DNA of 64,000 nucleotides. Source: Artemia franciscana. Taxonomy: Eukaryota; Arthropoda; Branchiopoda; Anostraca; Artemiidae. Position 1 is the first letter of the stretch; every line of letters starts with the position of its first letter. Below are positions 13,886 to 59,691 of the stretch, piece after piece. The DNA lies in NCBI RefSeq assembly GCF_032884065.1, contig NC_088868.1, positions 11,408,335 to 11,472,334 of the forward strand. The letters are read 5' to 3'. Position numbers and translations under genes: made by a program. The notes under the pieces were generated by a model, which ran no database searches, was not told where the DNA came from, and saw only the letters and a list, made by a program, of their open reading frames with translations.

Positions 13886-14169
13886 TTCTGAACGTTTTTG
13901 AATTAATGCATGTTTGATTTTGGCTTTCCGCACATAAATTATTAAAATAAAATTTGTATATTAATTCTTTTTTTGGCTAAATGACTTTCTCTTAGTTTTC
14001 ATCAGACGATTTTGAGAAATAAGGGGTGGGGAAGGAGGCCTAGTTGCCCTCCAATGTTTTGGTTACTTAAAAAGGCAACTAGAACTTTTAATTTTTACAG
14101 AACGTTTTTATTAGTAAAAAATATACGTAACTTAAGAATTAACTTACGTAACACACTTTTATATTCTTA

Positions 14170-14455: not shown

Positions 14456-14479
14456 ATGTTTATTTTTTCATTGTTTTTT

Positions 14480-15205: not shown

Positions 15206-15212
15206 ACTGTTT

Positions 15213-21097: not shown

Positions 21098-21237
21098 TCA
21101 GAAAGCACTATAGTCGACAGGCTGCATAACCATAAACTTCGCAATTTTTTCACAAACTTCAGGTGACAGTAACTCGTGAATTATCAGCAAAGCGAAGTTT
21201 ATCGCAGTTCCAGGTCCACGACTTGTAATTATTTTGC
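21098..21237 (-). CDS. PARK7: DJ-1 last exon with stop
   Basis: Acceptor GGTTTCAG. It encodes KIITSRGPGTAINFALLIIH and ends PVDYSAF with a TGA stop at 21098-21100. The tail after VMQP differs from the KAPLVLKD end of human DJ-1, as often at this terminus. The preceding intron is about 4.6 kb. Confidence 0.92.
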
Positions 21238-24200
21238 CTGAAACCAAAAAATTAACAAATCAATTCAAATTAAAGCCAGATCAAACAGACACTTTCAACA
21301 TATCATAATTTTTGACCTTTAGAGTTATTATTGGACATAGAAAGATGTTCAAAATAAAACTGAATATTTTTAAATCAGACACTAACGAACATCTGTTTAG
21401 TCCAAACCTATTCGTTGTTCGTAGCTAGGCATTGGTGACAAGTGTTGTACAGACCTGAATTCTTCTTCCTTTTTTTTAAGCGTTCTTAATTGAACGTCTT
21501 AACGACTTCCGCACGCCTTAACAGCTTCTGCATAAATTTTCACAACCAGACAATGGTTTTAAAATAGCAAAAGATGACCAGTCTCAGGTGATTAAATGAT
21601 AAGATAAACACTAGGGCGATAGCAACAGGAGAAACGTTACATATTTCATATCTGTATTACAGAAAAAGATACATTATGGTTGCAGCGCAAGCTGCAACCT
21701 AGTAAAGAGCGAACAACAGCCCATAGTAACCAAAAGTAAAAAACGCGTGTTGAAAAAAACTAACTAGTGAAAAAAAATTGTCATCTGACACTGATTTAGG
21801 AATGGCGACTATTATTCCGGTTCGTCCTAAACGTAAAAGTTTATTGCGAAAAGAAATTTATGGTGATTTCGAAAAAAAGTCTGAAACCTCTCGAAAATGG
21901 CAACAGATCAACATGAAAAGTATACCATTGGAATCAGCGTGATCAAAAAGTAGATTTTCCTTTTGCAACAAGGAAAATCACTTTTTTGCATCGGTAGCAC
22001 TGATGTGTCTCCCGTTTTTTTTTTTTTTCTTGTTTTTTTTTTAAGGCCTAGCGGGTTACCAGAACTTCATAGAGAGATGCTTAATGACTCATTCAAAAGC
22101 TATTTCTCATAATCTACGTGTTTCTTATAAATTCCCCCATCTGCAAGTGCCATATGGCACTAAAATCGCACTTTTTGTGCCATTTCTCAAGGGGTGGCAC
22201 TAGCAGGCTACCAGAACACCATAGACAGATTTTTTATGGCTCATATGAAATATATTGCTCATATCTACATTCCTCCTATAAATTCCACCATCTACAAGTT
22301 CCAAATGGCACTAAAAACGGCATATTTGGTGCCATGTCTCAAGTGGAAAAGCTGGGGCTATTGGGCAAGCAGAACTTATAAGAGTTACGTTTAATAACTT
22401 ATTTGAAAGCTATTTCTCATACCTACGTGCTTTTTTTGTCAATTCTATCATTCGTAAGTGCGATATAGCACTGAAAACAACACTTTTGGTGCCACTTGTG
22501 GAAAATCTTAGTTTTTGTTAAGTGGGCTATTGTTTTGTGTATTTTTTGTAATTACTTACTTTTTTCATTTTTATATACTTTAACTTTAATTGACATACTT
22601 TTTCCATTACTATTAGAAGAATGTTAGTCTCTAAGCTTCATGAAATAAAGAAAAAATAAATTTTCAACTGAAAATAAGGTGCAACATTAAAACTTACAAC
22701 GAGAAGAAATTATTACGTATATGAGGGCGGTCACCCCCTCCTCAACACTTCGCTCTTCACGCTACAGTTTTTAGGCACTTACGAAAAAAGTTACTTATTG
22801 TTCTAATTAAACGACCCTTGTGTTTCATGAGTCGTTTTTACATAATTCGGACAAAATTTAAACTTTCGTGCAAAGAGCGAGCAAAAGTGAATCGGTAAAG
22901 AGAAAGCAAGACATATAAAGAAATTTCGTATAGGAATTCTGGCAAACTCAGCCAGAGTATAATTTCCCCTAAAGAAATCACCCCATGGAAACTTCACTCT
23001 CCATGGAAAATTCTCCCAGCAGAAAATTCGTCTTCTCCTCCCAGCCAAAAATATATGCATACTTCTCAATAAAAAATAAAACAATGGGCAATTTTTTCAA
23101 GTTGAAAATCTTTCTCTAGGGCTTTAAGGGGTCATTTTATGTCCAAAGACATAATTATTGGGCCTTTCAACTATGCGAGAAAAAAAAGCTATCTTAAAAT
23201 TTTAATCAGACGATTTTGGGAAAAAGTGGCGTGGGAGGGGGTCTAGTTGCCCTCCAGTTTTTTGGTCACTTAAAAAGGGCACTAGGACTAAAATGAATCA
23301 TTCCCCCGAACGTTCTAGACCCACTGGGACGATACGATCACCCCTGGGGAAAAAAACAGATAAAAAGCATTCGTGATCTTTCTTCTGGCAAAATTCATAA
23401 AAGTCCACATTTTTGCAGATATGAGCTTGAAACCTCTACAGAAGGGTTAGTTGATACACTGAATCTGATTATATGTATTTCATTAGAACTCTATGACTTC
23501 CATAAAAATCCAAATACAGATCATTGAAATATTGACAGTTTTTTCTGCTCTACCAAAAGTTTTGTATTCATAAAACTTTACAGTTTCATAGAATATAGTT
23601 AAACTAAGAGAAAAGGTTTTTCAACTAAGGTAAGGAGCTAAAACTTAAAATAAATATAAATTACTCTGTATACAAGGGGAACACTTTGTTCATTAACCAA
23701 AAGATTTTTTAAGGCTTTGAAATTTTTTTTTCCAATTGTAAATTTTCTTTAAAATTTGAAAAAAGGTAAACTTCACAATAAAGAGTAGGGAGCTAAGGAG
23801 CAGGCAGCCCCCTTCATAAAAAGACTATTCTGTTCAAATAAGTTCCAAATCTGTTCCTTACTTTCAGTTAAAAAGCTTTTTTTATTTAATTTCTGATTGT
23901 TTTCCAAATCACACCAAGGCATATAACCAAGATATAATTAGAGGTACAGGTCCCTTAAATCCCTGGTTAATTGTTTTTAAAATTTGTAAATCATTAATTG
24001 TACGTTCATTAGTACCATTCAACGTTTAAACTTGCAATTTCAATTTTGGACGGAATTTTAATATACTTAAAAATTGGTAATGAATACTAATTTTGGTGAA
24101 AAGTCCTTGTTAATATTACGATTAAAGAATTTCCGTTGGATGAAAAGGAGTATAATTGTTTGAATGGATGGAAATTAAGTGAGACTTTTGATATTCTGCA

Positions 24201-27200
24201 TAACTGAAGCCGTCACAACCTTTATAATATGATTTTCTTATCGATAAATGCATTACATACATTCGTTTAAATACATTGAAGTACTTAATATAAATAGAGA
24301 AAGAAAAATATTACCATTTACAATTGCTGAAAACTACGTTCCTAGCAGTATTTACCACCCCATAGAAATCCCCCCCCCCCTAGAAAAAGCCATCTATGTG
24401 CTTTCAGATATAGGAATGTAACATTTTAGCTGTATAGAGAAACATTTTAATTAATTCCTACACTCCCATACCTCTTTCAACATTTATCTGAAGCTCCTCA
24501 GGCAGAATAAGCCTCAGGAAGAGTATATAAGAATATACCCTATCCCTACCTAGACAATGACTCACCCCATTCATTATAGCTGATACGCAATTACAGATCA
24601 CCAGACATAGCCTAACTTCATTACAAAAAAAGCGCATCAACTTGGTTGAATCCAGTACTGCCATTATTTGGCATTACTTCTTTTGCAACTGGGAAGCCTA
24701 GAATATAGTTATTGATACTTTTAAATCAATTAGCTTCTCAGAATTTTAAACTGATTACAAATTCGTCCTCTTCGGGGTAAAGTCGTAGTCTGGTGTCCTA
24801 AACCACCTAAACTGTCACCCAACCATCACTGCTATTTTGGTGTCTGCCCCCCCCTGGAAAATTTTCTGCCGGCGCCCTTGGAGTTTCATTCTTCATTCCC
24901 TCTCATAAAGTTCTTACTTCCTTTAAATATGTTTTGGTGACCTCTTTTCACACTATTAAAGGATACACTGCGTTTAGCTGGGCCTCCAATAGATTGTCAA
25001 AAAGCATAATTTTTAGCAACTATCCATTCTTCATCCACAAAACGTAACCCAACCATCCTAACTTGCTTTTCTTCTTAGCCAGTTGTCTAAACCGTGTTTT
25101 TGTACAGCATATTGTACGAATACCTAAAACAATCACTAGACAATGTTTTTCAACACCTCTGAAAAATATCTAGCATATTTTCCTAAAGTTTTGGAAACAA
25201 CCATATTTCAGAGCCATATCCGACGACTTTCATTAGCGTGGCTTTTAGCTACCTAATTTTAGCTCTAAAGCTTGTCCTTTTATTTTTCAATACCCTTTTA
25301 AACTACAAAAAAAACTCACTATGCATTGGCTATTCTGCTTTTTACGTTTTACTACAACCACTACCCTTACTAATGACGGTATGTAAAACTATCACTAGGT
25401 ATTTGAAGTTCTCTTCTCTGTACATTTTCTTAGTACCTACAACAAAGTTTACCCAACTTTATTTCAAATCTAAGCCACTTAGTTAACACACAAAAATTTC
25501 TTAACATTATATCTCAAACCTGTTCTTGTCCTCTGAAGTCCCGACAACTCTAAAAATCAAATAATTTTGTTAGCACTTTCACGAAGGACATTCAAACCAT
25601 CTGCGTCATTGAAATCTAAGAGTTTTATTATCCTACTTAATGCCATTCTTTCCCAAAATTCTTGTTTAAAATAGCTCATTAAAAAAAATTTACTTTTTAA
25701 GTTTACCCCCCCCCCATCACAGGAATATTTGTACATACTCACCCCCCCCCCCCTTCTCTCCGAAAATTTTCAATAAGTGACCACCCTAATAATTAAGACA
25801 AAAAAACATAGAAAGTAAAAAAAACACACCATCTTTGCACGCTATTTGTTCTGAATACTGATAGCCACCAGCAACCAGCTTGTCTTGGACACTTGGGTGG
25901 GATGTGACCTTCTTGCCAAGGCCAATGCTATGAGTCATTAGACACAATGGACCTAAAAACAACAATATTTAAATTAGAGATAAACTGTCTCCAAGCTATT
26001 CAAAACTGCTCTATAGTAAAGTAAGCCGTTGATATCAAAGTTAGATAAGTTTCCCGCCACACACAACACTTTTCAAGAGTAAGGAAGGAGCATGTTACTG
26101 ATAGTTGGCACACAATCATAAACGAATCTTAAGACGTGGCATGGCCCGAGTATTGACAAAAGAAAAAAAGTTTTAAATGCAATCTTAAAAAGAGATGTTT
26201 ATTCACTTCCAAGCAGGATACACTATAGCTGAATCTTAGAGCGTGAAAGATAAAAGGGACTTCAATCATAAAAATCAGCACTCATGACGACCACCATGCC
26301 AAAATGTTTCTTCAAAAAAAAAAAAAATCAAGACAAAAAAAATTCAAATATTTGGATAGTACATTGCACTGTCAATGATTTTGAAAACAAGATAGAATAG
26401 AAAATTGGTGATCGCATTATTTTCACTCAAAATATTTGGACGGTACTACAAAAAGGCCTGTTGCAGAAACGAGAGTTAAGCTGGGCAAGCGTACCTAAGG
26501 ATATAGTCCCAAGGCGAGTAAACAAGGATCAGAGGAGATACGCTACTGCACAGCAGCCAGGTAACAAGGGTCTGGGATTGATTAAGTCCCAGGCGGCGAT
26601 TTTGCCACCCCCTTCCATCCCTCCCCCAACAGCCAGCTAGTACAGTGTTTCAACTTTATAATGTAACTCCATTATTTAAGAAGTATTGCTACCTATATGC
26701 CCATCCCAAGCCTCTATTTATTTAAGTAAGGAAATTGTAATAGCATATCGAAGGAAAAAGCTAACACATTGGGCCGTAATGTGTATACCGGAGAGGGTCA
26801 CTCCCAAGTAAATTGGGTCTAAAATATGAAGAGCAGTACATAAAAGAAATCTTTGTTCGTCAGATCTGTATGTAGTTCGAGTTCAAGTATATAGAGTAGC
26901 AATAAAAGAAAAGATGAACTCACCAGCACAGATAGCAGCAATAATAGATCCCCTCTTTTCGTGGTTTTTCAGCAGCCTGGCGACCTTTGGACTCTTAAAA
27001 AAAAATAGCTTTAGTAAAAAGTAACGCTATTGTACCTGCATAAGGTTTATAGTTATTGCTACGTAAAGTAAGATGTTTATAAACCCAGAAAAGCAAGGAA
27101 ATGGTCTCGTTGTACCCCTCCCAATTTATTTTTCAAGAAAAACTTCTCTTTTAATAAAAACTAAACTATTGCAGAATTTGAATATGGAACCTCTGAGCGT

Positions 27201-28162
27201 ATTACTCAGGACAACCAGTAGGGTACTTCATTTTTAACCGACAATCTTTCCAAATTCGACACTTTACTCCTTTTACTAAGTGTTTAGCCACCATCTTAAT
27301 GTTTATTCTTTGCCATTCTCCAATACCCGACAACACTTTGTCGGTTTCCCCTTCCAGTGCTCATATTTTTATCCTTGCAACTTCTCAAGAGAGAAAGAGA
27401 GATGGGGGAGGGGGGTTCATGGAAAGAAAATATTCCACTAATAGCTAAATTGGATGTTTATCAGGAAGTAAAAAAAAATTTGTATTTACACTGCTACATA
27501 AGCTGGGTTGAAGATAGTTTCTGAGCTAAGCTGACAGTTATTGTTAGCCCATGAAAATTGAACTACTACTTTATAGCCATGGTAGTATAATATAACATAT
27601 TTAATTTCTTGAGGTGAACAATTGCTGTTTGTTCCAACAGCTTTTACTTACATAAAAAACTTAGATGAGAAATCTTGACAATCAAAATCAACATAAACCA
27701 TAGACTTAACAATCAGGTTTCAATCAAAAGTGCCAGTCCAGAATTCTGTGATGCACTGCGTCCTGAAAATGACTGGTGAAAACAAGTAATTTTAGTTAAT
27801 TAACCATCTTTGGCCCACCATTAGATGGTGATGTTGCGCATAATAGATAGACGATGCCAGTAACAAAAGTATTGAACTGACAACTCTAGCAAAGCAAACC
27901 CAGAAAAAATTATTTTTTGGTGACAGACCTACCTCAATGGCAAATTTATCTAAGTTCAACCAACCTCAATAAATAACCAAACTCAATAAATGTAACATAC
28001 CTGACTCAGATTTTCAACCCCTTTGAGTCCTCCTGGTACAAGAATAACATCATACACAGCTTCATCATCAATATCATCCAATGATGCATCTGGAACAATA
28101 ATGACCCCACGACTACAAGTCACTGGATCCTTACCATGAAGGCTAGCAAGGGTCACATTTAT
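21098..28162 (-). CDS. PARK7: DJ-1/PARK7-like protein gene, four 3' exons
   Basis: This is the spliced gene for a DJ-1/PfpI-superfamily protein, a cytosolic and mitochondrial oxidative-stress protein whose reactive cysteine sits on the nucleophile elbow. Four exons join in frame into 164 residues that align end to end with human DJ-1 from about residue 31. Visible hallmarks are DPVTCSRGVI (Cys46 equivalent), PDASLDD, VILVPGGLKG, the elbow IIAAICAGP with the Cys106 equivalent, KKVTSHPSVQDKL with the His126 equivalent, and TSRGPGTAINFAL. The usual Cys53 position is Val (IIVPDAS for VICPDAS). The first roughly 30 residues, including the acidic partner Glu18, must lie in an upstream exon that I could not find between 28.2 and 45 kb. 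Introns contain LINE and fold-back debris. Confidence 0.93.
21690..22029. repeat. Dispersed repeat fragment in DJ-1 intron
   Basis: GCCCATAGTAACCAAAAG at about 21720 recurs (one mismatch) near 1224 in the same orientation. The rest reads GGAATGGCGACTATTATTCC and GGCAACAGATCAACATG, with no usable frame. It ends in a long T run at 22013-22042. Confidence 0.45.
22030..22510. repeat. Tandem repeat, about 155-bp unit, three copies
   Basis: Units share ACCAGAAC/GCAGAACTT (about 22058, 22209, 22368), CTCATA..CTACGTG, AATTC..CCATCTGCAAGTG and TTTGGTGCCA. Offsets are about 151 and 160. Each unit contains the small palindrome GTGCCATATGGCAC or a derivative. Two overlapping open frames of 87 and 66 codons are shadows of the repeat. 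Confidence 0.8.
22660..22900. mobile_element. Fold-back element copy, partial
   Basis: The left arm reads TTTTCAACTGAAAATAAGGT, GCAACATTAAAACTTACAAC and GAAATTATTACGTATATGAG. The inner part of the right arm follows (TTTCGTGCAAAGAGCGAG near 22862-22880), but the outer right arm is missing. Confidence 0.6.
23110..23600. mobile_element. Hairpin-ended repeat module, partial copy 3
   Basis: GGCGTGGGAGGGGGTCTAGT, TTGGTCACTTAAAAAGGGCA, TGGGACGATACGATCACCCC and TTCTGGCAAAATTCATAA match the 15.9-16.7 kb module. The terminal hairpin is absent or decayed. Confidence 0.65.
23612..23900. mobile_element. Fold-back element copy, decayed
   Basis: The left arm is TTTTTCAACTAAGGTAAGGA; the right arm ends TTCCTTACTTTCAGTTAAAA then TTTATTTAATTTCTG. 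The interior is degraded. Confidence 0.6.
23901..24869. other. Intronic AT-rich DNA
   Basis: No gene. A C run lies at 24370-24380. The minus frame at 24458-24664 has no clear motif, though it precedes an RTE LINE relic on the same strand and might be its degraded tail. Confidence 0.4.
24870..25642 (-). pseudogene. RTE-like LINE reverse transcriptase relic in DJ-1 intron
   Basis: On the minus strand the order matches RTE-type RT: KLLDFNDADGLNVLRESANK (about 25560-25625) stands where the catalytic YADD box normally reads LDYADDL..L. Then, with stops and frameshifts, come a region corresponding to IGLKINVKKTK, FKYLVIVLHTVISKGSG (YLGSIIS..DGG), LKNKRTSFRAKIR (about 25270), KATLMKVVGYGSE (about 25200-25245), and the LGHVLR-like segment MVGLRFVDEE (about 25030-25060). 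More than five lesions make it non-functional. The relatedness to the 12.5-13.6 kb relic is visible in the SxRxKIRxLxAT..M..V.YG motif. Confidence 0.75.
25708..25755. repeat. Two poly-C tracts
   Basis: C runs of about 10 (25707-25716) and 13 (25741-25754, after an A) are separated by about 25 bases. Such G/C homopolymers in introns are prone to slippage. Confidence 0.8.
25830..25952 (-). CDS. PARK7: DJ-1 exon c
   Basis: Acceptor TTTTTAG, donor GTGTGT. It encodes GPLCLMTHSIGLGKKVTSHP and continues to QYSEQIACKDG. It contains the His126 equivalent. The split Gly codon keeps the frame with exon b. Confidence 0.92.
25953..28000. other. DJ-1 introns between exons a, b and c
   Basis: Apart from exon b, no coding signal. 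Intronic AT-rich DNA with purine or poly-A runs (26308-26330). Nothing else recognised. Confidence 0.6.
26924..26993 (-). CDS. PARK7: DJ-1 exon b (nucleophile elbow)
   Basis: Acceptor TTTTTTTAAG (an AAG rather than CAG/TAG acceptor), donor GTGAG. It encodes SPKVARLLKNHEKRG and SIIAAICA, then one base of the next Gly codon. It carries the reactive cysteine. Confidence 0.92.
28001..28162 (-). CDS. PARK7: DJ-1 exon a (54 codons)
   Basis: Acceptor ...CCTTAACAG, donor GTATGT. It starts INVTLASLHGKDPV and ends GGLKGVENLSQ, phase 0 at both ends. It covers strands beta-2 to beta-4 of the DJ-1 fold by homology. Confidence 0.93.
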
Positions 28163-30051
28163 CTGTTAAGGATAAATATAATTAGAATTCAGGATTTTTT
28201 AAACTCTGTTGAAAGCAAATCAGGCAGAAGTTAATAAAAGGACATGGCATGATTAGTTTTTAGACATGTTCAAAGTAAAGCCCTCTTGATAGTATTAGCA
28301 GGCTACTATAGACTAGCTTTAGAATTTGTATCACAGCTTGAAATTCACTATTGTATAGAGAGAAATAACTGGGTTTCCAGAGTTCATATTATGTTTTATT
28401 TCATCTTCATTTCAAGTCATACTAAAGCATAGAGTCCACAAAAATAGTTCAAAGGTCAGATAAGAAAAACTCCAGTGTTGGCGCAAACCCCAGGGCCAGG
28501 GGGTAGGCGCCAATGATGCAGCAGGTTTCAGACTTTTACAGTGAAAGAAGGAGGCAAACTCCAAACTTTTATTGTAGAGATTTTTGTTTGTTTCAAGTTA
28601 GATTTGCATATTCAATTTAAGTTTCACTCGTTTTAAGATCTATTAACTATTTATATTAGTAGCTATTGTTTGTTTGTTTGCTAAGATTGTTTATTTTATT
28701 TCTGTTCGTTTTGGGTTTCATATATGCCTCAATAGCAAAATATTTTTTGTTCGTTTTAAGCTTGATTTGTATATTCAACTTAAGCTTTACTCGTTTTGAG
28801 ATTTATTTATTCATTTATATTAGTAGCTGTTGCATGTTTTTTGCTATGAATGTTTATTTAATTTCTGTTTGTTTTGGGTTTCATTTATTTTTCAATAGTA
28901 ATTTCTGGTTGTTTTGAGTTTGATTTATTGTAGGTTTCTATTTCTTCATATCTTAAGTTTAACATGACCTTTACTTTTCTTTAAAAAACTTCTTTTTCAG
29001 AAAGTGTTCTTTTTAAATTAACCATAATCAAGTGCTTGCTTTAGCTATACATATTCATCACTAAAATTCTTTGGACGAACTTATGTGATGGGTGCTATAT
29101 GTGACCTACAAGTTTTTATCATCTGACTGAATCCCTCCCACACTGAAGACATACAATCAGCATCTACATAGATAATTAAAACAAAATCCTTGTTACTGCA
29201 TTTCCTTGATAGATTTTTCATATTAGACGGGAGCACAGATAGGAGTATTTACAGCACTGTGAAGGGGAAATATTGTTAATGTTCCCTGACAGCCAACTCA
29301 TGGGCCAGGACAGATAATCAAGAACTGTTTTTGTAGTTCAGGCAGGATATTTTACTTTTACAGACTTTCTGAAGCTAGTATATGTTCTGAATAGCAACAT
29401 GGTTTCAATTATTTAGAATACAAAAGGGTCGAGAACAATGGAATACCTATCCTTTCTGAATTGTGAGGAATGATCCTAAGGAACACAGATATTTGACAGT
29501 AGGCGTATGTTATAGTGCCAAATATCCCCTTCAATTGTGCTTAACAGCAGAATATGGTGGTAGAAACCTCCTGTAGCCATCCTGGGAGTGGCATGGCATC
29601 ATAGTATTTGGAAAACATCCCAGTCTAGTCTCTATTCACGTTTTTACTATTCCTTTACACTGCTGAAGAATTGACAAAGCAATTCAAGCATTTGGTGGTT
29701 TCTGCTTTGTCCAAAAGGACAGTTCAAAGGACAGGCTTACAGTCTTGACAGTGCCATAACTATCAAAACCTTAAATCCACCATGAAAGACAAATTGTGAT
29801 TTTATTTGCCCCTTGGTTTCCATTCTTCTACTCCCAAAAAAAGCAGCATCCATTCTTAGTCATATTCCTGTAATCTGTAAGACTATAGAAAGTATATTTT
29901 ATAGTAAAACTCAATCAACAATCCCTCTCTGTGCAGTGTGCCAAGTACTTTTTCTAAATCAAAGTGAGGATCAACGTGACACTGGTCAGCCTCAGCACAT
30001 TGGAGTCAGGCTTCCAAGTAGTGCCTGGTTGCTGTCTTCTCTATTATATAA
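28163..30051. other. CpG-poor DNA upstream of DJ-1 exon a
   Basis: No gene recognised. This may be DJ-1 intron 1 or 5' flank. It includes a dimeric repeat: GTTTCAAGTTAGATTTG (28590) and GTTTTAAGCTTGATTTG (28753) start two related units of about 163 bases ending near 28915. CpG is very rare across this stretch. Confidence 0.5.
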
Positions 30052-30690
30052 TTTGTCTATGCCAACTTTTCAATTTCTCTCATACTCTGATCAGACTGCA
30101 CCGTTTCATGGAGAATACATGTATCCTTCTTTGGTGTGTGGATGCTGAAATCAAACTCCTTGAGAAAGTTAATAAAGGTCTCCCAGAGAAAGATAGGCTT
30201 CTAAGTTTTTCTGTGGTGTTCAGCATAGAGCCTGAATAGGTTTGCTTATTTTTGAAATTTTGAAACTTACTTCTTTCTAGTAGAAGAATAGCAGTAATAG
30301 AATCCCAGAGCAAGTAAGTATCTTATCCACTTTCTTGGATGCTTATAGACATCCCTTTTTATCTTATTCAGAGGGTTTGATTTCTTATCCATTCTCCAAG
30401 AAAATCCAAAATCGTTGTTCTTAGCTACATTTCTTGAAGAAACTCCACAAGATCTAGGAATTGCCCTAAAAAATTTTAGACAAACTTTCTTCTTATTTTC
30501 ATCATCATACGAACATAACAAGGCACATAATATCTTACAGTGTCATTTCTTTTTGGTTCTGCTTTCAGAGTTTGCTCTGAAACAGGTTCGGAATGAGTGA
30601 GCACACAACCAATCTTTTTATTGGATTTTATTGCCAAGCCCTAAATAGTAAGAAAAGATCCCTTTTCCTTGTTTGTCTGAGAAGGTTTTG
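30052..30690. repeat. Dispersed repeat, about 635 bp, copy 1
   Basis: Direct-orientation match to 44420-45052, at a rough visual estimate 85-90% identical. Landmarks are TTTGTCTATGCCAACTTTTC, GAGAAAGTTAATAAAGGTC, TTGGATGCTTATAGACATCC and TTCTCCAAGAAAATCCAAAA. No coding frame is conserved between copies. Probably a non-autonomous transposon. Confidence 0.8.
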
Positions 30691-32696
30691 CAAAACTTAC
30701 ACCTTGGTTATTCTGAAAGACAAGGGTTTAGTCTGATTTTTCTTGCTTTAATTTTACTCTACCTTTCCGTCAGTTTTCTTTCATCCTCTTTTCCTAACTC
30801 TAACAAGATTTTCTTTCCTTGTTTTATTTGTACACTTTCTTTAAGTGGAAGACATTCTTTGCTTTCTGATGCTCACATGGTCAGATGAAAAGCCTCTTTG
30901 TTGTCTGAGGCTTCCTCATCTGAGTTTTCATATCTGAACTGGTTATGTCTACTTCCTTGCTCTCTGAATCGAAGGCTTGATTTCAGGTACCCTTGCCAAG
31001 CAAAACACTAGCTTCATGTAAATCAAAGTTTACTTCAGACAAATCTTCAGTTCATATCTCCCAGCTGAGGTGGCTTAGCTTCGTTGTTTTCAATGGAAAT
31101 GTAGTCGGATCCTGAAGAACTGTGGCTCAAATCCCCAGAAATTATACACATAACTTACAAAACAATGTGTTAATTGGCATTAGAAATTCAGTAGGAACAA
31201 TGACTATCTTATCTATGATTTTGCTGTTGTTGCTTCACTGCAAAAATTATTTTCTTCTGGAGGCAATATATGCTGCAATTAAGAAGCTGCAAGATATGTG
31301 GTTTCTGCTCAACACCCTTGTATAGTAGTCCCAGATATGTTGTTTCCACCATGTCTATATCTCCTGACATATGAATCGGAAGCAATCAAGATATGCACCA
31401 TTCAACACAGAACTTTTTGGCAAATAGAACTGTGTTAAAAAGTGAAAATCACAAATTTTACAAGATACGCAGTTTCCACTTGACACCAACGATATGACAC
31501 TTCATGATTGCATGAATTGGTCTAGATATAAAATTAGCCTTCAAATGAGCCCTTAAAAATCTCTCTATGATATTATAGTGTCCAGCTACCAGCAAAGAAA
31601 AAATGGACATCAGTGCAACCTATGCAAAAAGTGATTTTCCGTGTCTTAATCTTTAATCTTGATCTTAAGATCTTTTTTCTTAATTCCTGTAGCTTAGTTT
31701 TTGTTTAAATGTTACTATTAAGGATTAACTGAAAAAAGAGTTACCACTCCTGCATCAGGTAAAAATGGTATTAAAAGAAATGTTTTAGAACTTTTGGTTA
31801 ATATGGGCTGTGTTTTGCTCTTTACTAGATTGCAGCCAATACTGCATCCATGGTACATTACAAGATGAAAAATAACAAAGAACCATATTAGAGTCAGCAA
31901 ACATATTGCTGACTCTAGGAGGGAGCATGGGGCAAGCTAAGTCTGACAATTTCTGAAGTGATGATAGAGTTCTAGGAAACTAACTTTAATACTCCATCCT
32001 TAGGTAGCATAGGAAATTGATTGGTGCTTCTCAACACGGCAAAGAGGTCTAAACATTGCTAAGCTTCATGCCAAGCAAAGTCATAGCTGATCTATTGCAG
32101 GGTGACCTTGAAGAGTGGCACCCTTCTAGGAAATTATAGCCTAGTAAATGAGACAGCATTTACATTGGATTCTGATTAATGGATAATTCTTCAGGGTTTA
32201 GTTTATTTTGGGCTGAAAACCCTCTTCCTAGCTAATTTATCCACTATGGACTGCCTCCCTGTAGCAGCATAATATTTCTAGGAATTAACATGCAATGAGT
32301 TGGCAGTAATAGGCTTGAGGTTGTCTGTACAGGATTTCAACTCTTGTTGATAGAAGAGCATCACCAAGTGCTGAAAACCATTTTGTGGCCCAAGATTGCA
32401 TAAAGCCTCCATTCAACCGAGGTCCCAAAAACCTTTTACAATCTGGTTCTAAGCTGGCTTAGGCACTTCTGTGTAGACTTGAGAAGATGTTTCAGGCCCC
32501 ATTCTGCACTGGTTCTGGGACCATGGCTTTTCCTGTAGCCAAAAAAATTCAATGAATTAGAAAATACAAAAATTACAACTTGGAATATTCCAATGTTAAA
32601 AAATGACATATCAACATTTTGACTGACAAATTCAAACACTTCAAACTGCAATTATTTAGAGTTCAGAAACTCATATCCTAGGAATAGAAAACATGA
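30691..32696. other. CpG-poor non-coding DNA
   Basis: No gene supported. A weak tRNA-like pair (TGGCTTAGC near 31068 and GGCTCAAATCCCC near 31122) might mark a decayed SINE. Several medium open frames have no motif. Confidence 0.4.
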
Positions 32697-32957
32697 AATT
32701 GGGTGATAGGAATTTTTTACTCAGGCAGGAAGGATGAGGCAAATAGACAGGGAATAGGGCTCATAATGAATAAAGAATCTGCTAAGTCTTGTTTAGGTTG
32801 GGAAGGTATTAATAATATAATGCAAGCTTCTTATTTTATGACTAAAAAAAATTATTTACAGCTGCAGGAACAAATAGACAGGGTCCCAGGTAGAAATAAG
32901 AAGAACTTATTGGGATATTTTAACACTAAGGCCAGTAGAAATGGAGATAAATGGTAG
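32697..32957 (+). pseudogene. RTE-like LINE endonuclease fragment
   Basis: The frame contains RQGIGLIMNKESAKSCLGWE, GINNIMQASYFMTKK and LQEQIDRVPGRNKKNLLGYF followed by NTKASRNGDKW. This matches the endonuclease of RTE-type LINEs (family motif GLIMN, LQEQIDRVPGRN, LGDFNA). GDFN has become GYFN, so the catalytic Asp is lost. About 25 residues between FMTKK and YLQLQ are deleted. It abuts the left hAT arm exactly, so one of the two was truncated at this junction. Confidence 0.75.
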
Positions 32958-32960
32958 CCT

Positions 32961-35758
32961 AGGTAACCTTGAATGTACAGTTCTAGTCTAGGGACACAAT
33001 GATCCACAATTTAATAACAAGCTTCAGATCGACATGAAAGTCATCAAGAGCTTCGTGAAACTAGATATCCTGAACAGAAATGATGCTTTTGAGTTACCTC
33101 TTGAGCCCCAAAACTACAAAGATGTGAAAGATGTGTTGTGAGGTCCAAATACAGAAGCTTATCTGAATGAAGAAGGACCATCAGGGAAAACTGTTGAAGG
33201 AGTTTAGGCTGACGTGCTTGGGATTCTACATTGAACTGGTGAAGCAGATGAGAAAGCAGGTCAATCAAAAAGATAAGACGTTACAATCTCTTGAGTACTT
33301 ACACCCGAAAGTTGCCGTGAATGGAACTGTTGAAACGATTAGTCCTTTGATCAGCAGATTTAGCAAACTCCTGGGGAAAAGTCAGAGTGAGATAAAGTCT
33401 GCTAGAGACACTCTCAAAAACCAGTGGCTGAGCCTGCCAGATTTCAAAGAAGATATGATCCTGAAGTCTGGTGGTGAAGAGCTAGTGTCCTCACCATCTT
33501 ATTTTTGGAAGCTCTTGTTTGATGTGAAGAACCCAACAGCACCCCCAAATTCTTTGAAATATAAAACTTTTTGTTGAACTTATGCGCGTTACCTCACTCA
33601 CGTGCTGTTGGCAAAAGACAGTTTTCTCAACCAACAAACATTAAAACTATGTTGCAAAATCGGTTGGAAGTGAAAACTGTCAATTCCCTCATCCATGTAA
33701 AGCAGATGGTTACTTGTAGTGCTGCATTGGTGGATTGGTGGCAGATTCCACCAATATCACTTAACAACTTTTCGAGGTGGTACTGCAAGACTGATGACAA
33801 GGATGAGCAAAAAGAGAATAAATCTGAACCTGAACTATTTGACTGACCAATCAGAAAACCAAATAACTGAAATTGGATTGCAGTAGCTGAAGTTTTTTCC
33901 TCCAAAATGATTAACCACTAAAAATTGCTGTTTTTTTCAAAAATGAAAGCCAAAGCTTTAAACATATTTCTTGTGCAGGAATTCTGCATTAAAGTTTCCC
34001 TTCATACTCTCACATTCTTGAAATTTTCTCCTTTCTTTCTTGAAAAACATGGTCTTTTCTGAACCCAGGATGTGGCTGGACCTCTGTATAATGCTTCTGA
34101 ATTGGAATCCAATTCATTATGTATCTGCTTACTTTTCGTAAGCCTTCATAACATGGAATGCACCATATGTGAAAGTCAACACAGTCTTTCCCTTATAAAG
34201 GTCTTTTCATGCTGTCTAGGCTCTTCTGTTCAATCCATCTTGAGCCAAGAAGATGGCAAAGGCCTAGCACAAAATATTTCGGATTTGCTTAGACATTTGT
34301 TGTGCACCATTCTGCTTTTGGTGGAAAGGATTGCGATTATATAAGCCTTTCCATTGTCTTTTACAGAAGCCGTCAACCTCTTCTCAGAAGAAAGAGATTG
34401 GGCAGTGAGAAATGGATTTTCCTCAAAAAACCATAGCTATGACACCAAAAAGCCCTTCTCTTTGGTTTTCTGTGCTTTTTCTTTTTTATTTCAACATTAA
34501 ATTGAGCACATGTGATTTTTGTCTTGTCACTAGATTGACATTTGCAAAGAATTGACATTTCTTTTTTTTTTGAAGAATAAATTATCTTTACACAGAACAA
34601 ATGATATTTGTCTTGTCATTATTTCTCTCCTTATCAAGTTTCATCTCCTAGTTAATTAATCCCATGAATATGTTAATGTTTGGATAAAATAACGATGTGG
34701 TTGTGTATTTTTGCAAGAGCAATGTTACCAAACGCGTTGGCAAAAGCCAGATGAAAAGGATGTGAAGCACGTTCAAAGCCAAGCACCTTTCACTCACTTT
34801 TTGATATCAGTCTGCAGGGAATGGTTGACAAACTTTTGCAGAAGATCTGATATACTACTGAAGGAAAATAGGGGGCAAGGGCAATTAAGCCATGTAGGCA
34901 GCGACAGACATTGTATCTGTGATCTGCTGGTGCAAATCTTTTAAGCCCTGTCTTCATTATGGCATTTTCCAGCCAAAATGGCTGGGGCGGCTCATAGTGA
35001 AGACTGGATTTATGGCTGTTTTCGTTTTCTCACTGTAAGAGTAGACATTTTGGCTGAAAACGTGAAAACTAAATAACACATTTTGTCATTCATCTTAGTT
35101 GTACTCCAACTTTTCTTTACATTCCTGTAACACTGCAAACACAGCACAAATGACTCAAAATCTTCTGCAGTTATTATTATTTAAGAATTAACAAAGCTTC
35201 TTGACTACTAAGGTCTCAGCCCTGCAGTGCATTCCTTCAGCATGATTTGACCTCTGGGTCCCGTATTACCAAGCTAAGGTCAAATCCACTGCACCACCAC
35301 AGGACAAAAATCTTCTGCAGTTCATGAAATAAGACTGTGCTTTCAAATTTTTTGCCAAAAACGACAAAAATGAAAACTGTCATCCAAAAAGTGGCAAAGC
35401 CAGTTCTGGTGCCAGAAAACGCCATAATAAAAACAAGGCTTTACTGAGTTTTTGGAAGAAGAATAACTAGTACAACCAAAGGTTTGAGAAAACCTGAGAA
35501 ATTGTACTGGATTCTTTTTCTTCTTCACGTATAAGGCAATTTGGGGTTTTTCATGGGATTTTACTTATTTTAAGAACCACTTTGCTTTTACTTGAAAAAG
35601 AATAACGTAAATCTTGCCATGGTGTTGTGAGAAAGCCATTTAAAGCCTTTTTTATGTCAACTTTTAAAGTATATTGCCTAATTTTCTAGGGAGACACTAA
35701 AAGTGTCATGTTTTTGCTGAATTTGATACTTTAGTCCCAAAAGGTTTTGGCAACCCTA
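32961..35758 (+). mobile_element. Truncated hAT element, left (CpG-depleted) copy
   Basis: Inverted copy of 36928-39715. Transposase pieces are on the plus strand: the start equivalent near 33010-33200, the middle at 33167-33577 (LTCLGFYIELVKQMRKQ), and the C-terminal dimerisation part at 33571-33846 (LCALPHSRAVGKRQFSQPTN). Frame breaks are at the same points as in the right copy. It ends at the terminal repeat GGCAACCCT (35749-35757), with the outermost base changed. Everything upstream of the transposase (the homologue of 39.72-41.28 kb) is missing, so it is one-ended. It differs from the right copy chiefly by CG to TG/CA changes. Confidence 0.88.
34945..35439. mobile_element. Nested MITE-like element in left hAT copy
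   Basis: The ends are inverted repeats GCCCTGTCTTCATTATGGCA and GCCATAATAAAAACAAGGC. It is equivalent to 37247-37747 in the right copy, so the insertion predates the separation of the two hAT copies. Confidence 0.7.
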
Positions 35759-36132
35759 CTCCTTCTCTCTCTAGAGGGCCCTGACCTTTGATGGCCTTTA
35801 AAAATATGTGTATTATAAAAGTGAAACCTTGCAAAATAGATCTTCTGCTTAATTGAAGTACAACGAAATTGTTTTCAGCTTCATAACTTTGCTCAGTTCC
35901 ATTTTATAAGGTTTTAAAGATATACAAATACATTTCCTAAGTTAAAAAAGAAAAAAACATTGATATGGCTCAAAATTCTACTCAAATAACAGGAATTGCA
36001 TTTTCGGAACTAAAGGCAGAGAAAAAGCAACTAGTAACTGAAAATTAAGGTAAAATGTTGTTTTGTCAAAATTTCAATAGGTATATACTTGTCATGTAGG
36101 CAAATTTAAGGGCCCTCTAGAGGGAGAAGGAG
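35759..36132. mobile_element. Possible small inverted-repeat element
   Basis: CTCCTTCTCTCTCTAGAGGG at 35759 and its inverse CCCTCTAGAGGGAGAAGGAG ending 36132 form 24-bp inverted repeats (one mismatch) around about 326 bases. It lies immediately against the end of the left hAT copy. No target duplication identified. Confidence 0.45.
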
Positions 36133-36510
36133 CAGAGGTAGGTGCTTTAAAATACCTTCCCGGGACATACTTTAGCCTGTAGAACCATCCCTGAAAGTTT
36201 CATTTTCCTAACCTTAACCCTTTCCAAGATCACAAGAAGTCAATTAACTAGAATTTTACCAAAAAATTGAGGTAGGCCTATAATTTTTTTTGTTAAAATT
36301 CTAATAGGCTAGGTAGGCCAATAGACCTGTCAAGTATGCCAGGCAAATTCATAAGACACAGAAATTAGCAGAGAGTTAACATGGTAACTTGGTAATACCT
36401 TCCTGGAGTATTTCTTGGCCTGTGTTTATTGCTGAAATTTTTATTTTAACTTAACCCCTTTCCAAGATAGTGAAATACACCCTGTCTAGAATTTTATCCC
36501 TAACTCTATA
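36020..36510. repeat. Diverged tandem duplication, about 245 bp
   Basis: Two units share TTGTTAAAATT(C/T)..AATAGG, CTTGTCATGTAGGCAAATT / CTGTCAAGTATGCCAGGCAAATT, AATACCTTCC(C/T)GG, CCTTTCCAAGAT and CTAGAATTTTA. It lies between the two hAT copies. Confidence 0.65.
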
Positions 36511-37246
36511 TTATTACCCATTTATCTCATTTATCAATAATGCCAAAAAGGGCATTTTGAAACAGTTATTGGTCCAAAAAGGACTTAATTTTCTTTTCTA
36601 TAGAGAAATGTAGTACCTATGGGTAAATTATTACCACTAGATTTCTTATTCTATGCTCTTTCGACAGACAAAATTGCTTTTGTGACAATTTACAGGTAAA
36701 TTTAACTGTTTTACACACAATAGGCCTACTAGTAGGCTAATTTTAGTTGTTCTTAATAATTTAGAAAAGATCTTCATTTAGGTAACTAAAAACAAGCTTT
36801 AATTACTTCAGCACGTCTAAGAGTATCCACAGAAGCTACTACTTCTGTTTCTTCTGAGCCTTCAGCAAGTAAAACGAGGCAAGTTTTGGCCATTTTGAAT
36901 ATTTTGCTAATTTTGTGGTTTTTCGTACAGGGTTGCCGAAATCTTTTGGGACTAAAGTGTCAAATTCAGCAAAAACGTGACACTTTTAGTGTCCCCCTAG
37001 AAAATTAGGCAATATACTTTAAAAGTTGACATAAAAAAGGCTTTAAATGGCTTTCTCACAATGCCATGGCCAGATTTACCTTATTCTTTTTCAAGTAAAA
37101 GCAAAGCGGTTCTTAAAATAAGTAAAATCCCATGAAAAACCCCAAATCGCCTAATACGCGAAGAAGAAAAAGAATCCAGTACAATTTCTCGGGTTTTCTC
37201 GAACCTTCGGTTGTACTAGTTATTCTTCTTCCGAAAACTCAGTAAA

Positions 37247-37747
37247 GCCTTGTTTTTATTATGGCGTTTTCCGGCACCAGAACTGGCTTTGCCACTTTTT
37301 GGACGACAGTTTTCATTTTCGTCGTTTTTGGCAAAAAAATTGAAAGCACAGTCTTATTTCATGAACTGCAGAAGATTTTTGTCCTGTGGTGGCGCTGTGG
37401 ATTTGACCTTATCTTGGTGATACGGGACCCAGAGGTCGAATCATGCTGAAGGAATGCACTGCAGGGCCGACGCAGGGACCTTAGTAGTCAAGAAGCTTCG
37501 TTAATTCTTAAATAATAATAACTGCAGAAGATTTTGAATCATTTGTGCTGCGTTTGCGGTGTTACAGGAACGTAAAGAAACGTTGGAGTACAACTAAGAT
37601 GAATGACAAAATGTGTTATTTAGTTTTCACTTTTTCAGCCAAAATGTCTACTCTTACGGCGAGAAAACGAAAACGGCTATAAAACTTGTCTTCACTATGA
37701 GCCACCCCAGCCGTTTCGGCCGGAAAATGCCATAATGAAGACAAGGC
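37247..37747. mobile_element. Nested MITE-like element with 28-bp inverted repeats
   Basis: GCCTTGTTTTTATTATGGCG (37247) and its inverse GCCATAATGAAGACAAGGC (ending 37747) extend to 28-bp arms with three mismatches; TTTTCCGG / CCGGAAAA completes them. The interior (37381-37445) contains a tRNA-like A box TGGCGCTGTGG and B box GAGGTCGAATC, so it may include a SINE head. Also present in the left hAT copy. Confidence 0.7.
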
Positions 37748-38831
37748 TTAAAAGATTTGCACCAGCAGGTCACAGATACGATGTCTGTCGCTGCCTACAC
37801 GGCTTAATTGCCCTTGCCCCCTATTTTCCTTCAGTAGCATATCAGATCTTCTGCAAATGTTTGTCGACCATTCCCCGCAGACTGATATCGAAAAGCGAGT
37901 GAAAGGCGCTTGGCTTGGAACGTGCTTCACATCCTTTTCATCTGGCTTTCGCCAACGCGTTTGGTAACGTTGCTCTCGCAAAAATACACAACCACATCGT
38001 TATTTTATCCAAATATTAACGTATTCATGAGATCAATTAACTAGGAGATGAAACTTGATAAGGAGAGAAATAATGACATGACAAATATAATTTGTTCTGT
38101 GTAAAGCTAATTTATTCTTCCAAAAAAAAGAAATGTCAATTCTTTGCAAATAGTGACAAGACAAAAATCACATGTGCTCAATTTAATGTTGAAATAAAAA
38201 AGAAAAAGCACAGAAAACCAAAGAGAAGGGCTTTTTGGTGTCATAGCTATGGTTTTTCGAGGAAAATCCGTTTCTCACTGCCCAATCTCTTTCTTCTGAG
38301 AAGAGGTCGACGGCTTCTGTAAGAGACAATGGAAAGGCTTATATAATCGTAATCCTTTCCACCAAAAGCAGAATGGTGCACAACAAATGTCTACGCAAAT
38401 CCGAAATATTTTGCGCTAGACCTTTTCCATCTTCGCGGCTGAAGATGGATTGAACGGAAAAACCTAGACAGCATGAAAAGACCTTTATAAGGGAAAGACT
38501 GTGTTGGGTTTCACATACGGTGCATTCCATGTTATGAAGGCTTACGAAAAGTAAGCACATACATAATGAATTCCAATTCAGAAGCATTATACAGAGGTCC
38601 AGCCACAACCTGGGTTCAGAAAAGACCATGTTTTTCAAGAAAGAAAGGAGAAAATTTCAAGAATGTGAGAGTATGAAGGAAAACTTTAATGCAGAATTCC
38701 TGCACAAAAAATATGTTTAAAGCTTCGGCTTTCATTTTTGAAAAAAAAATCAATTTTTAGTGGTTAACCATTTTGGAGGAAAAAACTTCAGCTACAGCAA
38801 TCCAATTTCAGTTATTTGGTTTTCTGATTGG

Positions 38832-39677
38832 TCAGTCAAATAGTTCAGGTTCAGATTTATTCTCTTTTTGCTCATCCTTGTCGTCAGTCTCGCAGTACCA
38901 CCTCGAAAAGTTGTTAAGTGATATTGGCGGAATCTGCCACCGATCCACCGACGCAGCGCTACGAGTAACCATCTGCTTTACATGGATGAGTGAATCGACA
39001 GTTTTCACTTCCAACCGATTTCGCAACATAGTTTTAATGTTTGTTGGTTGAGAAAACTGTCTTTCGGCACCAGCACGTGAGTGAGGTAACGCGCATAAGT
39101 TCAACAAAAAGTTTGATAGTTCAAAGAATTTGGGGGTGCCGTCGGGTTCTTCACATCGAACAAGAGCTTCCAAAAATAAGATGGTGAGGACACTAGCTCT
39201 TCACCACCAGACTTCAGGATCATTTCTTCTTTGAAATCTGGCAGGCTCAGCCACTGGTTTTCGAGAGTGTCTCTAGCAGACTTTATCTCGCTCTGACTTT
39301 TCCCCAGGAGTTCGCTAAATCTGCTGATCAAAGGACTAATCGTTTCAACAGTTCCATTCACGGCAACTTTCGGGTCTAAGTACTCGAGAGATTGTAACGT
39401 CTTATCTTTATGATTGACCCGCTTTCTCATCTGCTTCACCAGTTCAATGTAGAATCCCAAGCACGTCAGCCTAAACTCCTTCAACAGTTTTCCCTGATGG
39501 TCCTTCTTCATTCAGATAAGCTTCTGTATTGGGACCACACAACACATCTTTCACATCTTTGTAGTTTCGGGGCTCAAGAGGCAACTCAAAAGCATCATTT
39601 CTGTTCAGGATATCTAGTTTCACGAAGCTCTTGATGACTTTCATGTCGATCTGAAGCTTGTTATTAGTGTGGATCAT
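38832..39677 (-). pseudogene. hAT transposase remnant in right copy
   Basis: Three successive minus frames cover one protein. Frame 1 is 39471-39677 (ELPLEPRNYKDVKDVLCG, PNTEAYLNEEG). Frame 2 is 39101-39511 (RLTCLGFYIELVKQMRKRVN, LEYLDPKVAVNG). Frame 3 is 38832-39173 (FLLNLCALPHSRAGAERQFS, QPTNIKTMLRNRLEVKTVDS), ending in an acidic tail and stop. Frame 3 is the C-terminal hAT dimerisation domain, whose usual consensus is ...A..ER.FS....IKT..RN.L. Frame 2 has the CLNFYIE..KQI..R-type region seen in several animal hAT families. The N-terminal zinc finger and first catalytic Asp were not found. The same shifts occur in the left copy, so the gene was broken before the copies separated. Confidence 0.8.
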
Positions 39678-41289
39678 TGCGTCCCCAGACTAGAACTGTA
39701 CGTTCAAGGTATTTACCTTACCAAGCAAAATGGCAGATCACCAGACATTAGCTGTAAATTGACACTCAGTTTATCCCCAAAGGCTATTTATACAGTGCAT
39801 AGTGATGTTTCCAGTTCACAAAAATTTGTTAAGGTAGTCCATAAGGACTATTATAATAAATTATTATATAAATTATGTGCCTTGAAGGTAGATTTAAACA
39901 ATGGCACAAGAGTCAGAACTTGTCATAACGATTGTCAGAAAGACGAGAAAAACCAATGTTTCATTAGGCCAGCAATAACCACAAAAAAATACTGTTGATA
40001 TGTCAGATTTTACAGCCGAACTAGCAGGCCTTCCTCAGCAAAATAAAAACCTCCCCTTTTCACATCTTCATGACAATGGTATAAAGAGGTCAATATAGAG
40101 TCCTTTCACATTTGAACTTCTTATGTTTAGGGGTGTCCGAGAATCACAACTGAGACACTGAGTAGTTACACAATTACTTCAATCTGAAAAGCTGTCCTAA
40201 CTGAAATAACTCTGTAAAAATTATACTAAAAAAAGGGTGACCACACCTTGGTTAACAACTAGGTTTATAGCTATAGAATCTACAATACTCATAGAATGAA
40301 CATCTGGCCTATACCCTCATGTAGAGATGCATTAAACTGTGAAATGAGGAAAAATCCCAAGTTGGTCAAGTTAGCACCGCCTTCAGCCAACCTGCTTGTT
40401 TACATATCTGTGGTCGATTTAGACGCTTCATAACTTGTTTTGTGTGCGTAACCTTGGAAAGCTTGGTTGGTTTTAATAATAGTCTTCTGTTTCTTCTTTA
40501 AAAAGGCCACCAGGTTACAGCATGTAAAGCGAAACATTTTTAACTGCCATTCTTGCATCCTTTCATTACTTTAGGCAAAAAGCACATTTCGTTAGTTAGC
40601 ACTTGGTACATTGGATGTGATGTTCGGTCTATGACAGTATTACATGTTCTTGACAGCTACCAGAGAATTTTCTAGTGAGTTAGACTGTACCCATACGGGA
40701 CAGGGTCCACCCTCTCAAATGCATGTGAACTTAAACTGCATATTTACTAAAAGCCTAATGTCTTAATTCAGGAAATCAACTGAGGTTCACCCTCATCCAA
40801 AAAAATTTTTAGCAGCAGCAAATCAGATCAGGATCATATAGTTTGCTACTAACTACTATCCAGGCCGCACCTCTGCATACTCCTGTAGACTACAAGTCAT
40901 AAAACAGCTTAAGCTTTTACTTACCAGCAGTCATATGCTTGCTTCAGTTTTTTATCAAATAAACTTTTTTCTAAACTCTCTTGAGCAAGTCACATGTTTC
41001 ACCACGTTTGAATTTTCGTGCTTTTAAAAAGGAAAGTAGTGTGGATACGATAAAAAAAAATCCCTAAGACGAAAACGAACCTGAAAAGCACAAAGTACAA
41101 ATTAAAAGCAGTTGCAGTTAAGAAAAAACTGAAAATAAATACATACGGTGTTGATTTTGAAAAAATGTCACAAAGTGTCCTTTTTCCAAAAAGTTGCCTT
41201 TTTTCACCCAATAGTGGCACGGTGTCACCCAGAGTGAAATAGTGTCAAAAAAGCACTAAAAGTGTCGCTTTGGCAACCCTGGTTTCGGA

Positions 41290-44200: not shown

Positions 44201-44376
44201 ATTTATCTGATATCAAAACAGGGCTTTAAAAATTACAATTTTCCTTTAAGAAATTAATTAATTACTTGGGAAATTCTTTTATGGATGTGTACTACATATT
44301 AGGATTCTAATCATATGTGATCGATTCAACCAACATGCAAACAAAACCATTTTTTGGTTTCCTCTTGCCGCTAAAG
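41290..44376. other. No gene recognised
   Basis: AT-rich DNA with short homopolymers (C run 42289-42297; A-rich 42895-42925; A run 44114-44128). Open frames such as 43046-43360 are low-complexity and lack motifs. This interval separates the hAT element from the next repeat. Confidence 0.45.

Positions 44377-47631: not shown

Positions 47632-59691
<12,060 letters not shown>

Follow-up and report, generated by a model that had tools for sequence, protein, structure and literature searches.

Directional CpG loss in one of two inverted hAT sister copies on either side of the DJ-1/PARK7 start codon

Invertebrate genomes are described as methylated over gene bodies, with hypomethylated promoters and methylated intronic transposable elements (PMC11292947, PMC8857917, PMC13345969). 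In most of the arthropods studied, exons carry more methylation than introns, with little difference in two crustaceans (PMC7343188). If the host of the DNA analyzed here is an arthropod, as an arthropod-like look of a COX1-like copy may suggest, this exon bias counts against reading an intron as methylated. The locus that we describe lies in a window (the whole stretch of DNA analyzed) of 64,000 nucleotides and resembles invertebrate gene-body, or mosaic, methylation in its CpG depletion and TpG/CpA excess within a conserved gene, in the lesser depletion upstream, and in a genome with DNMT1 exons and a DNMT3-like frame. However, what is seen here is a mutation footprint at one locus, and two sister transposons provide an internal control that is absent from bulk observed/expected (o/e) CpG values. 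There is also a likeness to the methylated intronic transposons of Cnidaria (PMC8857917, PMC13345969) and annelids (PMC11292947) in that the copy within the gene appears methylated and the others do not; those reports give direct methylation data, whereas the record here is historical and concerns one element. Among the titles and abstract openings of the literature on this theme, we recognised no published two-copy test of such design.

The gene is a minus-strand DJ-1/PARK7, whose joined exons match a PDB DJ-1 entry with an E value of 4.4e-58. Its start codon is flanked by two sister hAT copies, L in intron 1 and R upstream, arranged as follows:

21100..21240, minus strand, last exon of DJ-1 (approximate limits)
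25789..25968, minus strand, open frame with DJ-1 exon 4, untrimmed relative to the splice sites
26927..26996, minus strand, DJ-1 exon 3 (approximate limits)
28001..28162, minus strand, DJ-1 exon 2
28163..36806, minus strand, DJ-1 intron 1, which contains L (splice signals read in the sequence)
32966..35757, plus strand, L, a 5'-truncated, CpG-depleted hAT copy in DJ-1 intron 1
35760..36262, no strand assigned, high-copy repeat of about 505 bp beside L
36807..36893, minus strand, first coding exon of DJ-1/PARK7, 29 codons beginning with the start codon (limits counted by eye)
36920..36927, no strand assigned, TTTTCGTA, candidate target site duplication of 8 bp, flanking R on its inner side (compared by eye)
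36928..41281, minus strand, R, a hAT copy of full length bounded by CAGGGTTGCC terminal inverted repeats; its 3' part, up to 39710, corresponds to L and retains its CpGs
38835..39200, minus strand, hAT C-terminal dimerisation region (PF05699, Dimer_Tnp_hAT) in R, E 6.1e-7

The DJ-1 start codon and the near end of R, which lies upstream of it, are 34 bp apart. The dimerisation domain of R and the short, CAGGG-type CAGGGTTGCC repeats found at both of its ends are those of hAT DNA transposons, from which the pair differs in the missing 5' end of L and in a longest listed transposase-side frame, in either copy, of 136 amino acids; both transposases look broken or may contain introns. The candidate duplication TTTTCGTA equals GTTTCGGA (41282-41289) at 6 of 8 bases, and L has no intact 5' end for a similar comparison. 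A preliminary description had ended the right arm at 39715, short of the 41281 that the full-length element reaches, and had missed the gene context: the position of L in intron 1, with R abutting the start codon, is the likely cause of the contrast between them. The locus is present twice in the genome, at C6:11,436,000-11,452,000 and again at 11,482,000-11,500,000, through a duplication of 49 kb that may be a true tandem duplication or a retained haplotype. We call the arms L and R in locus copy 1 and L' and R' in locus copy 2. In a tree built on non-CpG sites, without the poorly covered family copy L026, the four arms form one clade (ultrafast bootstrap 100).

The inverted arms (L 32966-35757, R 36928-39710) are about 95% identical, with 130 mismatches over 2776 aligned bases, and the aligned block holds 29 CpGs in L and 95 in R. 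As seen in L, 66 of these 95 are TG or CA (26 and 40, respectively), 26 are kept and 3 are otherwise changed. The full alignment, with substitutions sorted by context, thus bears out the claim made earlier by eye that most differences are CG in the right arm and TG or CA in the left. The local counts given then also hold: 11 such changes, 3 other differences and 3 CpGs kept in both arms at 38836-39080, and 10 changes, 4 others and 4 kept CpGs at 37745-37985. The statement that nothing had changed the opposite way needs correction by one site, a CG at 34988 in L that is TG at 37704 in R; two further CpGs of L are AG or GG in R. The two directions are nevertheless far from equal (66 against 1; two-sided binomial p about 1e-18).

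Losses were polarised with hAT family copies from the same genome. From 136 CpG rows, 10 were set aside as having a CG unsupported in relatives and 33 as lacking CG in all four arms (29 scored tttt or xxxx, 4 scored t-tt). At 83 sites CG was present in both R and R', aligned in L and supported by relatives; 53 of these are gone from L and L' alike (from L alone where L' is deleted) and 30 were kept in L or L'. The product differs between L and L' at 3 of the 53, which are possibly later and separate losses. The loss in L that predates the duplication thus amounts to 50 to 53 CpGs out of 83, and R underwent at most one such transition. This set is blind by construction to losses in R, but a scan of all sites found none with TG or CA in R and R' and CG in both L arms; CG was confined to L at one site, and at two it was present in L and L' and otherwise changed in R and R'. 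Changes outside CpGs on the same stems numbered 22 for L and 9 for R (p 0.03), or 18 and 6 under stricter rules. Only 4 of 648 non-CpG sites on the L stem show C-to-T or G-to-A changes, and by rough arithmetic CpGs on this stem were about 45-fold more mutable than non-CpG sites.

The family comparison shows which arm is unusual. Relative to the consensus, L has lost 55 of 84 CpGs (65%) and L' 46 of 74 (62%), whereas losses are 6-17% in the 21 remaining copies that were read, among them R and R', with non-CpG divergence overlapping that of L. The outlier is therefore L with its duplicate L', and R, at 8.3%, is ordinary, like the 20 other non-L copies (6-17%). Three copies, L023, L019 and L028, are about as diverged as L outside CpGs (4.44%, 4.11% and 3.96%, against 4.07% in L) and yet have lost only 8.6-17% of their CpGs. 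The sample rests on 40 scored candidates of 188, with 19 copies (L010-L028) read among 37 listed places outside the locus; L' was absent from the candidate list, probably owing to its 460-bp deletion, and further CpG-poor copies were possibly missed. Across 20 copies (the 19 plus R, without L), the CpG o/e of the flanks was no significant predictor of how many CpGs a copy had lost (Spearman -0.31, p 0.18).

The duplication allows the arms to be compared over equal time. Loss went on with both copies in place: since then L has undergone 7 CpG transitions, L' 4 (5 with a mixed site), R none and R' 4, that is, 11 in L and L' against 4 in R and R' from far more CpGs (Fisher p 1.8e-4, with hand-entered denominators of 68 and 180). 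Without polarisation, CpG transitions separate the two locus copies at 14 of 37 sites in L and at 7 of 99 sites in R (p 4e-5), at practically the same non-CpG divergence (1.02% and 0.97%). The corresponding CpG to non-CpG ratio per site is 18.5-fold in L and 3.7-fold in R; two stretches outside the gene give 1.6-2.4, a little below R, so that R may itself carry some methylation. The L-free part of intron 1 shows only 4 CpG transitions in 29 sites (ratio 5.8), and the stretch at 25.55-28.16 kb, which was left out of the pooled between-copy comparison, only 3 in 40 (ratio 4.3).

Base composition around the gene shows a similar picture, with CpG depletion and TpG/CpA gain in intron 1 and less of both upstream. 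CpG o/e is 0.17 in the L-free intron 1 (28165-32965; TpG/CpA o/e 1.19), 0.60 upstream of R (41282-45000; 1.07) and 0.85 in the window outside 20-42 kb (1.0), and the 3' part of the gene (21.1-28.2 kb) is weakly depleted (0.57; 1.05). The spacer beside L was withdrawn as evidence of methylation, because the repeat of about 505 bp at 35760-36262 is also CpG-poor in 10 other copies read and its poverty is thus uninformative. In a further repeat pair, 30051-30685 in the intron and 44419-45052 outside, the intron member has no CpG loss; at three sites CG in the intron faces CA outside and at one the reverse. This pair has too few CpGs to weigh heavily and leans against a methylation reading. As for the enzymes, the genome has matches above cut-off to PF00145 and to PF12047 (DNMT1-RFD), and the frame C1 matches PF00145 with an E value of 6.1e-12. 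It encodes DNMT1 exons (DNMT1-RFD, plus a catalytic exon that is DNMT1-like) and a frame resembling DNMT3; the labels DNMT2 and DNMT3, and DNMT1 for the catalytic exon, are presumptive and based on motifs.

The earlier proposal that cytosine methylation and deamination acted on one copy gains support from CpG-specific loss that is polarised onto L and continues after the duplication. Very probably, germline gene-body methylation of DJ-1 intron 1 eroded the CpGs of L, with R lying just outside. L and R are sister copies of one hAT family, one on each side of the start codon; intron 1, L included, would be CpG-methylated in the germline by DNMT1 and a DNMT3-type enzyme, and deamination of 5-methylcytosine would have turned most CpGs of L into TpG or CpA. 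R, on the promoter or 5' leader side that is usually unmethylated in such genomes, would have kept its CpGs like other family copies. Methylation itself, its occurrence in the germline and the gene body as its director we infer from the mutation pattern, for a single gene and a single L insertion that the duplication shows in two versions, L and L' not being independent for the stem losses. Counting against this reading are the weak depletion in the 3' part of DJ-1, the few CpG transitions between locus copies in the L-free intron and at 25.55-28.16 kb, the second repeat pair, the flank comparison and the longer non-CpG stem of L. That the insertion of R itself set the methylation edge, a full-length hAT having become the DJ-1 promoter or 5' leader and so fixed the start of gene-body methylation in both locus copies, is a rather unlikely extension.

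Other mechanisms could be proposed. It is improbable that methylation was aimed at L as a transposon, for instance by small RNAs, and not through its place in the gene body. In three cnidarians, transposons within introns show methylation above background, and the youngest show the most (PMC8857917), but the other 21 family copies read, R and R' among them, keep most of their CpGs and the L-free intron 1 is likewise depleted. A mechanism guided by sequence or by hairpin RNA would be expected to strike both inverted arms, and silencing by inverted-repeat RNA was set aside on the same expectation. A still weaker case can be made for an older L, with a longer decay, and an R recently derived from a CpG-rich source, which would require no difference in methylation. 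The longer non-CpG stem of L and its truncation beside a full-length R agree with this very improbable history; against it stand the single clade of the four arms, the slight CpG loss of the three copies about as diverged as L, and the faster loss in L after the duplication at equal non-CpG divergence. Age alone is therefore insufficient and was rejected on the family and equal-time comparisons.

Selection could instead have protected the CpGs of R as the DJ-1 promoter or 5' leader under an equal mutation rate in both arms, and its nearness to the start codon would suit such a role. Yet the retention in R is ordinary for the family and L is the exception, so no special protection is needed, and we consider this slightly less probable again than a difference in age. 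Least probable of all is CpG-independent mutagenesis linked to transcription, or gene conversion between the arms. The excess of CA over TG in L has the direction expected if the DJ-1 coding strand mutates more (p 0.11), but the excess of changes is confined to CpGs, with very few comparable changes elsewhere on the L stem. Kept and lost CpGs in L do not cluster in tracts (runs test p 0.25, not significant), and conversion tracts were rejected on this result.

Gene-body methylation thus remains our preferred reading, and the locus would be a clean instance of a footprint of known kind. In bulk CpG o/e, base composition and past methylation are confounded, as the repeat beside L exemplifies. 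Here, two sister copies separated by about 1.2 kb, of which one lies within a gene body and the other just beyond it, together with 21 little-affected non-L copies in all and a second copy of the locus, allow the two to be told apart. They also give a rough figure for how mutable CpGs presumed to be methylated are in this genome relative to non-CpG sites, about 45-fold on the L stem and 18.5-fold between the locus copies, against 3.7-fold in R. The design could be extended to all intragenic transposons of a genome, so that past germline methylation and its edges might be mapped from sequence.

The two inverted hAT arms, the left copy L and the right copy R, proved real in the 1.27 Gb source assembly (G000), where the window spans C6:11408335-11472334, and are about 95% identical, with 130 mismatches in 2776 aligned bases. 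R holds 95 CpGs and L 29, of which 26 are common to both. At 66 sites CG in R corresponded to TG (26) or CA (40) in L, and at 3 to another dinucleotide. In the reverse direction, CG in L corresponded to another dinucleotide in R at 2 sites and to TG at one, the single exception to the strictly one-directional loss claimed in the preliminary description. Its counts in two sub-windows were confirmed (11 CpG transitions, 3 CpGs kept and 3 other differences in the first; 10, 4 and 4 in the second), and the observation was correct and well seen. The end it assigned to the right copy, 39715, is only the limit of homology to L; R extends to 41281.

Features of the hAT copies and of the DJ-1/PARK7 gene
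36928-41281: R, full-length element bounded on each side by CAGGGTTGCC; carries a hAT dimerisation domain
32966-35757: L, 5'-truncated copy missing bases 1-1571 of the element
36893 (start) to 36806 (donor), minus strand: DJ-1/PARK7 exon 1, its start 34 bp from the R end
28162-28001, minus strand: DJ-1 exon 2
near 26.95, 25.9 and 21.2 kb, minus strand: DJ-1 exons 3, 4 and last

A candidate 8-bp target duplication of R shows 6 of 8 bases equal. The 5' part of R (39711-41281) is poorer in CpG, with 1.34 per 100 bases versus 3.45; the 18 other loci that retain 200 bases or more of this part are all likewise poorer in it, so this is a property of the family. The joined DJ-1 exons matched DJ-1 in PDB (E 4.4e-58) and Pfam DJ-1_PfpI (3.8e-50), and their positions place L within intron 1 and R on the upstream side of the start codon. 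The R transposase and DJ-1 have the same orientation.

Downstream, DJ-1 and both hAT arms occur a second time as part of a repeated unit of about 49 kb, 97-98.5% identical over the compared parts. Window 10.9-15.7 kb (10860-15706) matched 59.9-64 kb (59886-64000) at 97-98.5%, and 25.55-43.28 kb matched two pieces of the second copy, L037 plus L009, at 97-98%. This second copy contains the counterparts R' and L', the latter with a 460-bp deletion. It may be a true (tandem) duplication or a retained haplotype, and either suffices for dating the changes. A tree of non-CpG sites united the four arms in one clade (ultrafast bootstrap 100), whose halves are L+L' and R+R' and whose nearest relatives are L010 and L011, two family copies elsewhere in the genome.

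Changes were assigned to stems (before the locus duplication) or tips (after it), and a CpG was called ancestral when CG was present in L010 or L011, or in at least 20% of other copies. At 83 sites R and R' both have CG and L can be aligned. The CpG was kept in L or L' at 30 of these and lost at 53, a loss being counted when it affected both L arms, or L alone where L' is deleted. The products differ between L and L' at 3 of these 53, which may be later, separate losses. Where all four arms are present, 82 sites carried CG in one arm or more. L and L' had both lost it at 47 of them. At no site did R and R' share a loss by transition while both L arms retained CG; one site was mixed (CG only in L) and 2 were otherwise changed in R and R'. 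Non-CpG stem changes numbered 22 in L versus 9 in R (p 0.03), or 18 versus 6 under stricter rules; those on tips were 7 in L, 8 in L', 7 in R and 8 in R', and positions absent from L' add 3, 4 and 3 to L, R and R'. The loss is specific to CpG: by arithmetic on these counts, the L stem carries about 0.43 changes per CpG base against 18/1885 at non-CpG bases, roughly 45-fold, and roughly 70-fold against non-CpG C-to-T and G-to-A changes only (4/648, small counts). The same arithmetic on tips gave about 28-fold for L and L' and 2-fold for R and R'.

All four arms have existed since the duplication, which allows an equal-time test, and the loss in L persisted. CpG transitions on tips were 7 in L, 4 in L' (5 counting the mixed site), none in R and 4 in R'. 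Between the two locus copies, without an outgroup, they affected 14/37 CpGs in L and 7/99 in R (p 4e-5). Non-CpG divergence was 1.02% and 0.97%, and the per-site ratio of CpG to non-CpG change 18.5 and 3.7, respectively. When pooled, intron 1 with L plus the spacer showed 21/74 versus 17/306 for a pool of R, the flank upstream of it and the distant pair at 10.9-15.7 kb (p 1.9e-7); 25.55-28.16 kb, left out of the pool, showed 3/40. For L-free intron 1 by itself the signal was weaker (4/29, ratio 5.8).

L is also an outlier in its family. The family reference consisted of CpGs shared by 60% or more of the other copies, and of these L has lost 55/84 (65%) and L' 46/74 (62%). The 21 other copies are R, R' and 19 loci elsewhere, these being 19 of 37 places outside the locus from a listing that scored 40 of 188 candidates. 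Because they have lost 6-17% at non-CpG divergences (2.4-4.4%) that bracket the 4.07% of L, the copies read appear, from their sequences, to be as a group without visible methylation, with L as the exception. In 20 copies, L not among them, the CpG o/e of the flanks was no significant predictor of how many CpGs were lost (Spearman -0.31, p 0.18), and two loci, L021 and L023, kept most CpGs despite very CpG-poor 3' flanks (3.7 kb; o/e 0.06 and 0.07), like R.

L-free intron 1 has a CpG o/e of 0.17 and a TpG/CpA o/e of 1.19; its counterpart in the second locus copy has 0.19 and 1.21. For the stretch running from exon 2 through the last DJ-1 exon the corresponding values are 0.57 and 1.05; at 41282-45000 they are 0.60 and 1.07, and in the window outside 20-42 kb 0.85 and 1.0. 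The low o/e of the spacer was rejected as evidence because a repeat (35760-36262; 4061 first-look candidates in the genome) that is also CpG-poor in the 10 other copies read makes up about 505 of its 1170 bases. The first two 500-base bins of a tandem array at 45095-47287 have CpG o/e of 1.43 and 1.47, and the 500-base bin bordering the array, 44501-45000, has zero CpG.

Concerning methyltransferase genes, DNMT1-RFD matches (best E 5.3e-12) and, about 55 kb from them, a catalytic exon were located on contig C2, the DNMT1 label being based on the RFD family. A DNMT3-like catalytic domain on C1 (G000:C1:67116892-67117374, L030) lies in an uninterrupted, possibly intronless, 607-residue frame, and DNMT2-like exons were found on C17; we provisionally label these DNMT3 and DNMT2 by their motifs. 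In the window, a SET-domain exon at 50965-51291 (minus strand; PF00856, E 3.6e-14) presumably resembles a SETD1-type H3K4 methyltransferase. Genome searches also gave 75 COX1 matches on several contigs. Several of them are almost full length and sit on chromosome-sized contigs, and probably represent large segments of mitochondrial DNA copied into the nucleus.

A known process now accounts best for the observation. Intron 1 of DJ-1 would be methylated in the germline, as gene-body methylation, and L would have eroded there, whereas R would lie just outside the gene body and behaves like the other family copies read. The data establish the direction of the loss, its specificity to CpG, its persistence over time, the outlier position of L in the family and the gene setting; the methylation itself is what we infer. 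Two annelids are described as having methylation concentrated in gene bodies with hypomethylated promoters (PMC11292947), and methylation of intronic transposons as possible (PMC8857917; PMC13345969). For arthropods, ancestral methylation of genes and few transposons is described, with exons above introns in most species (PMC7343188); this last feature would count against a strongly methylated intron if the host is an arthropod. The value of the observation lies in offering a clean case with an internal control, and a design open to scaling up.
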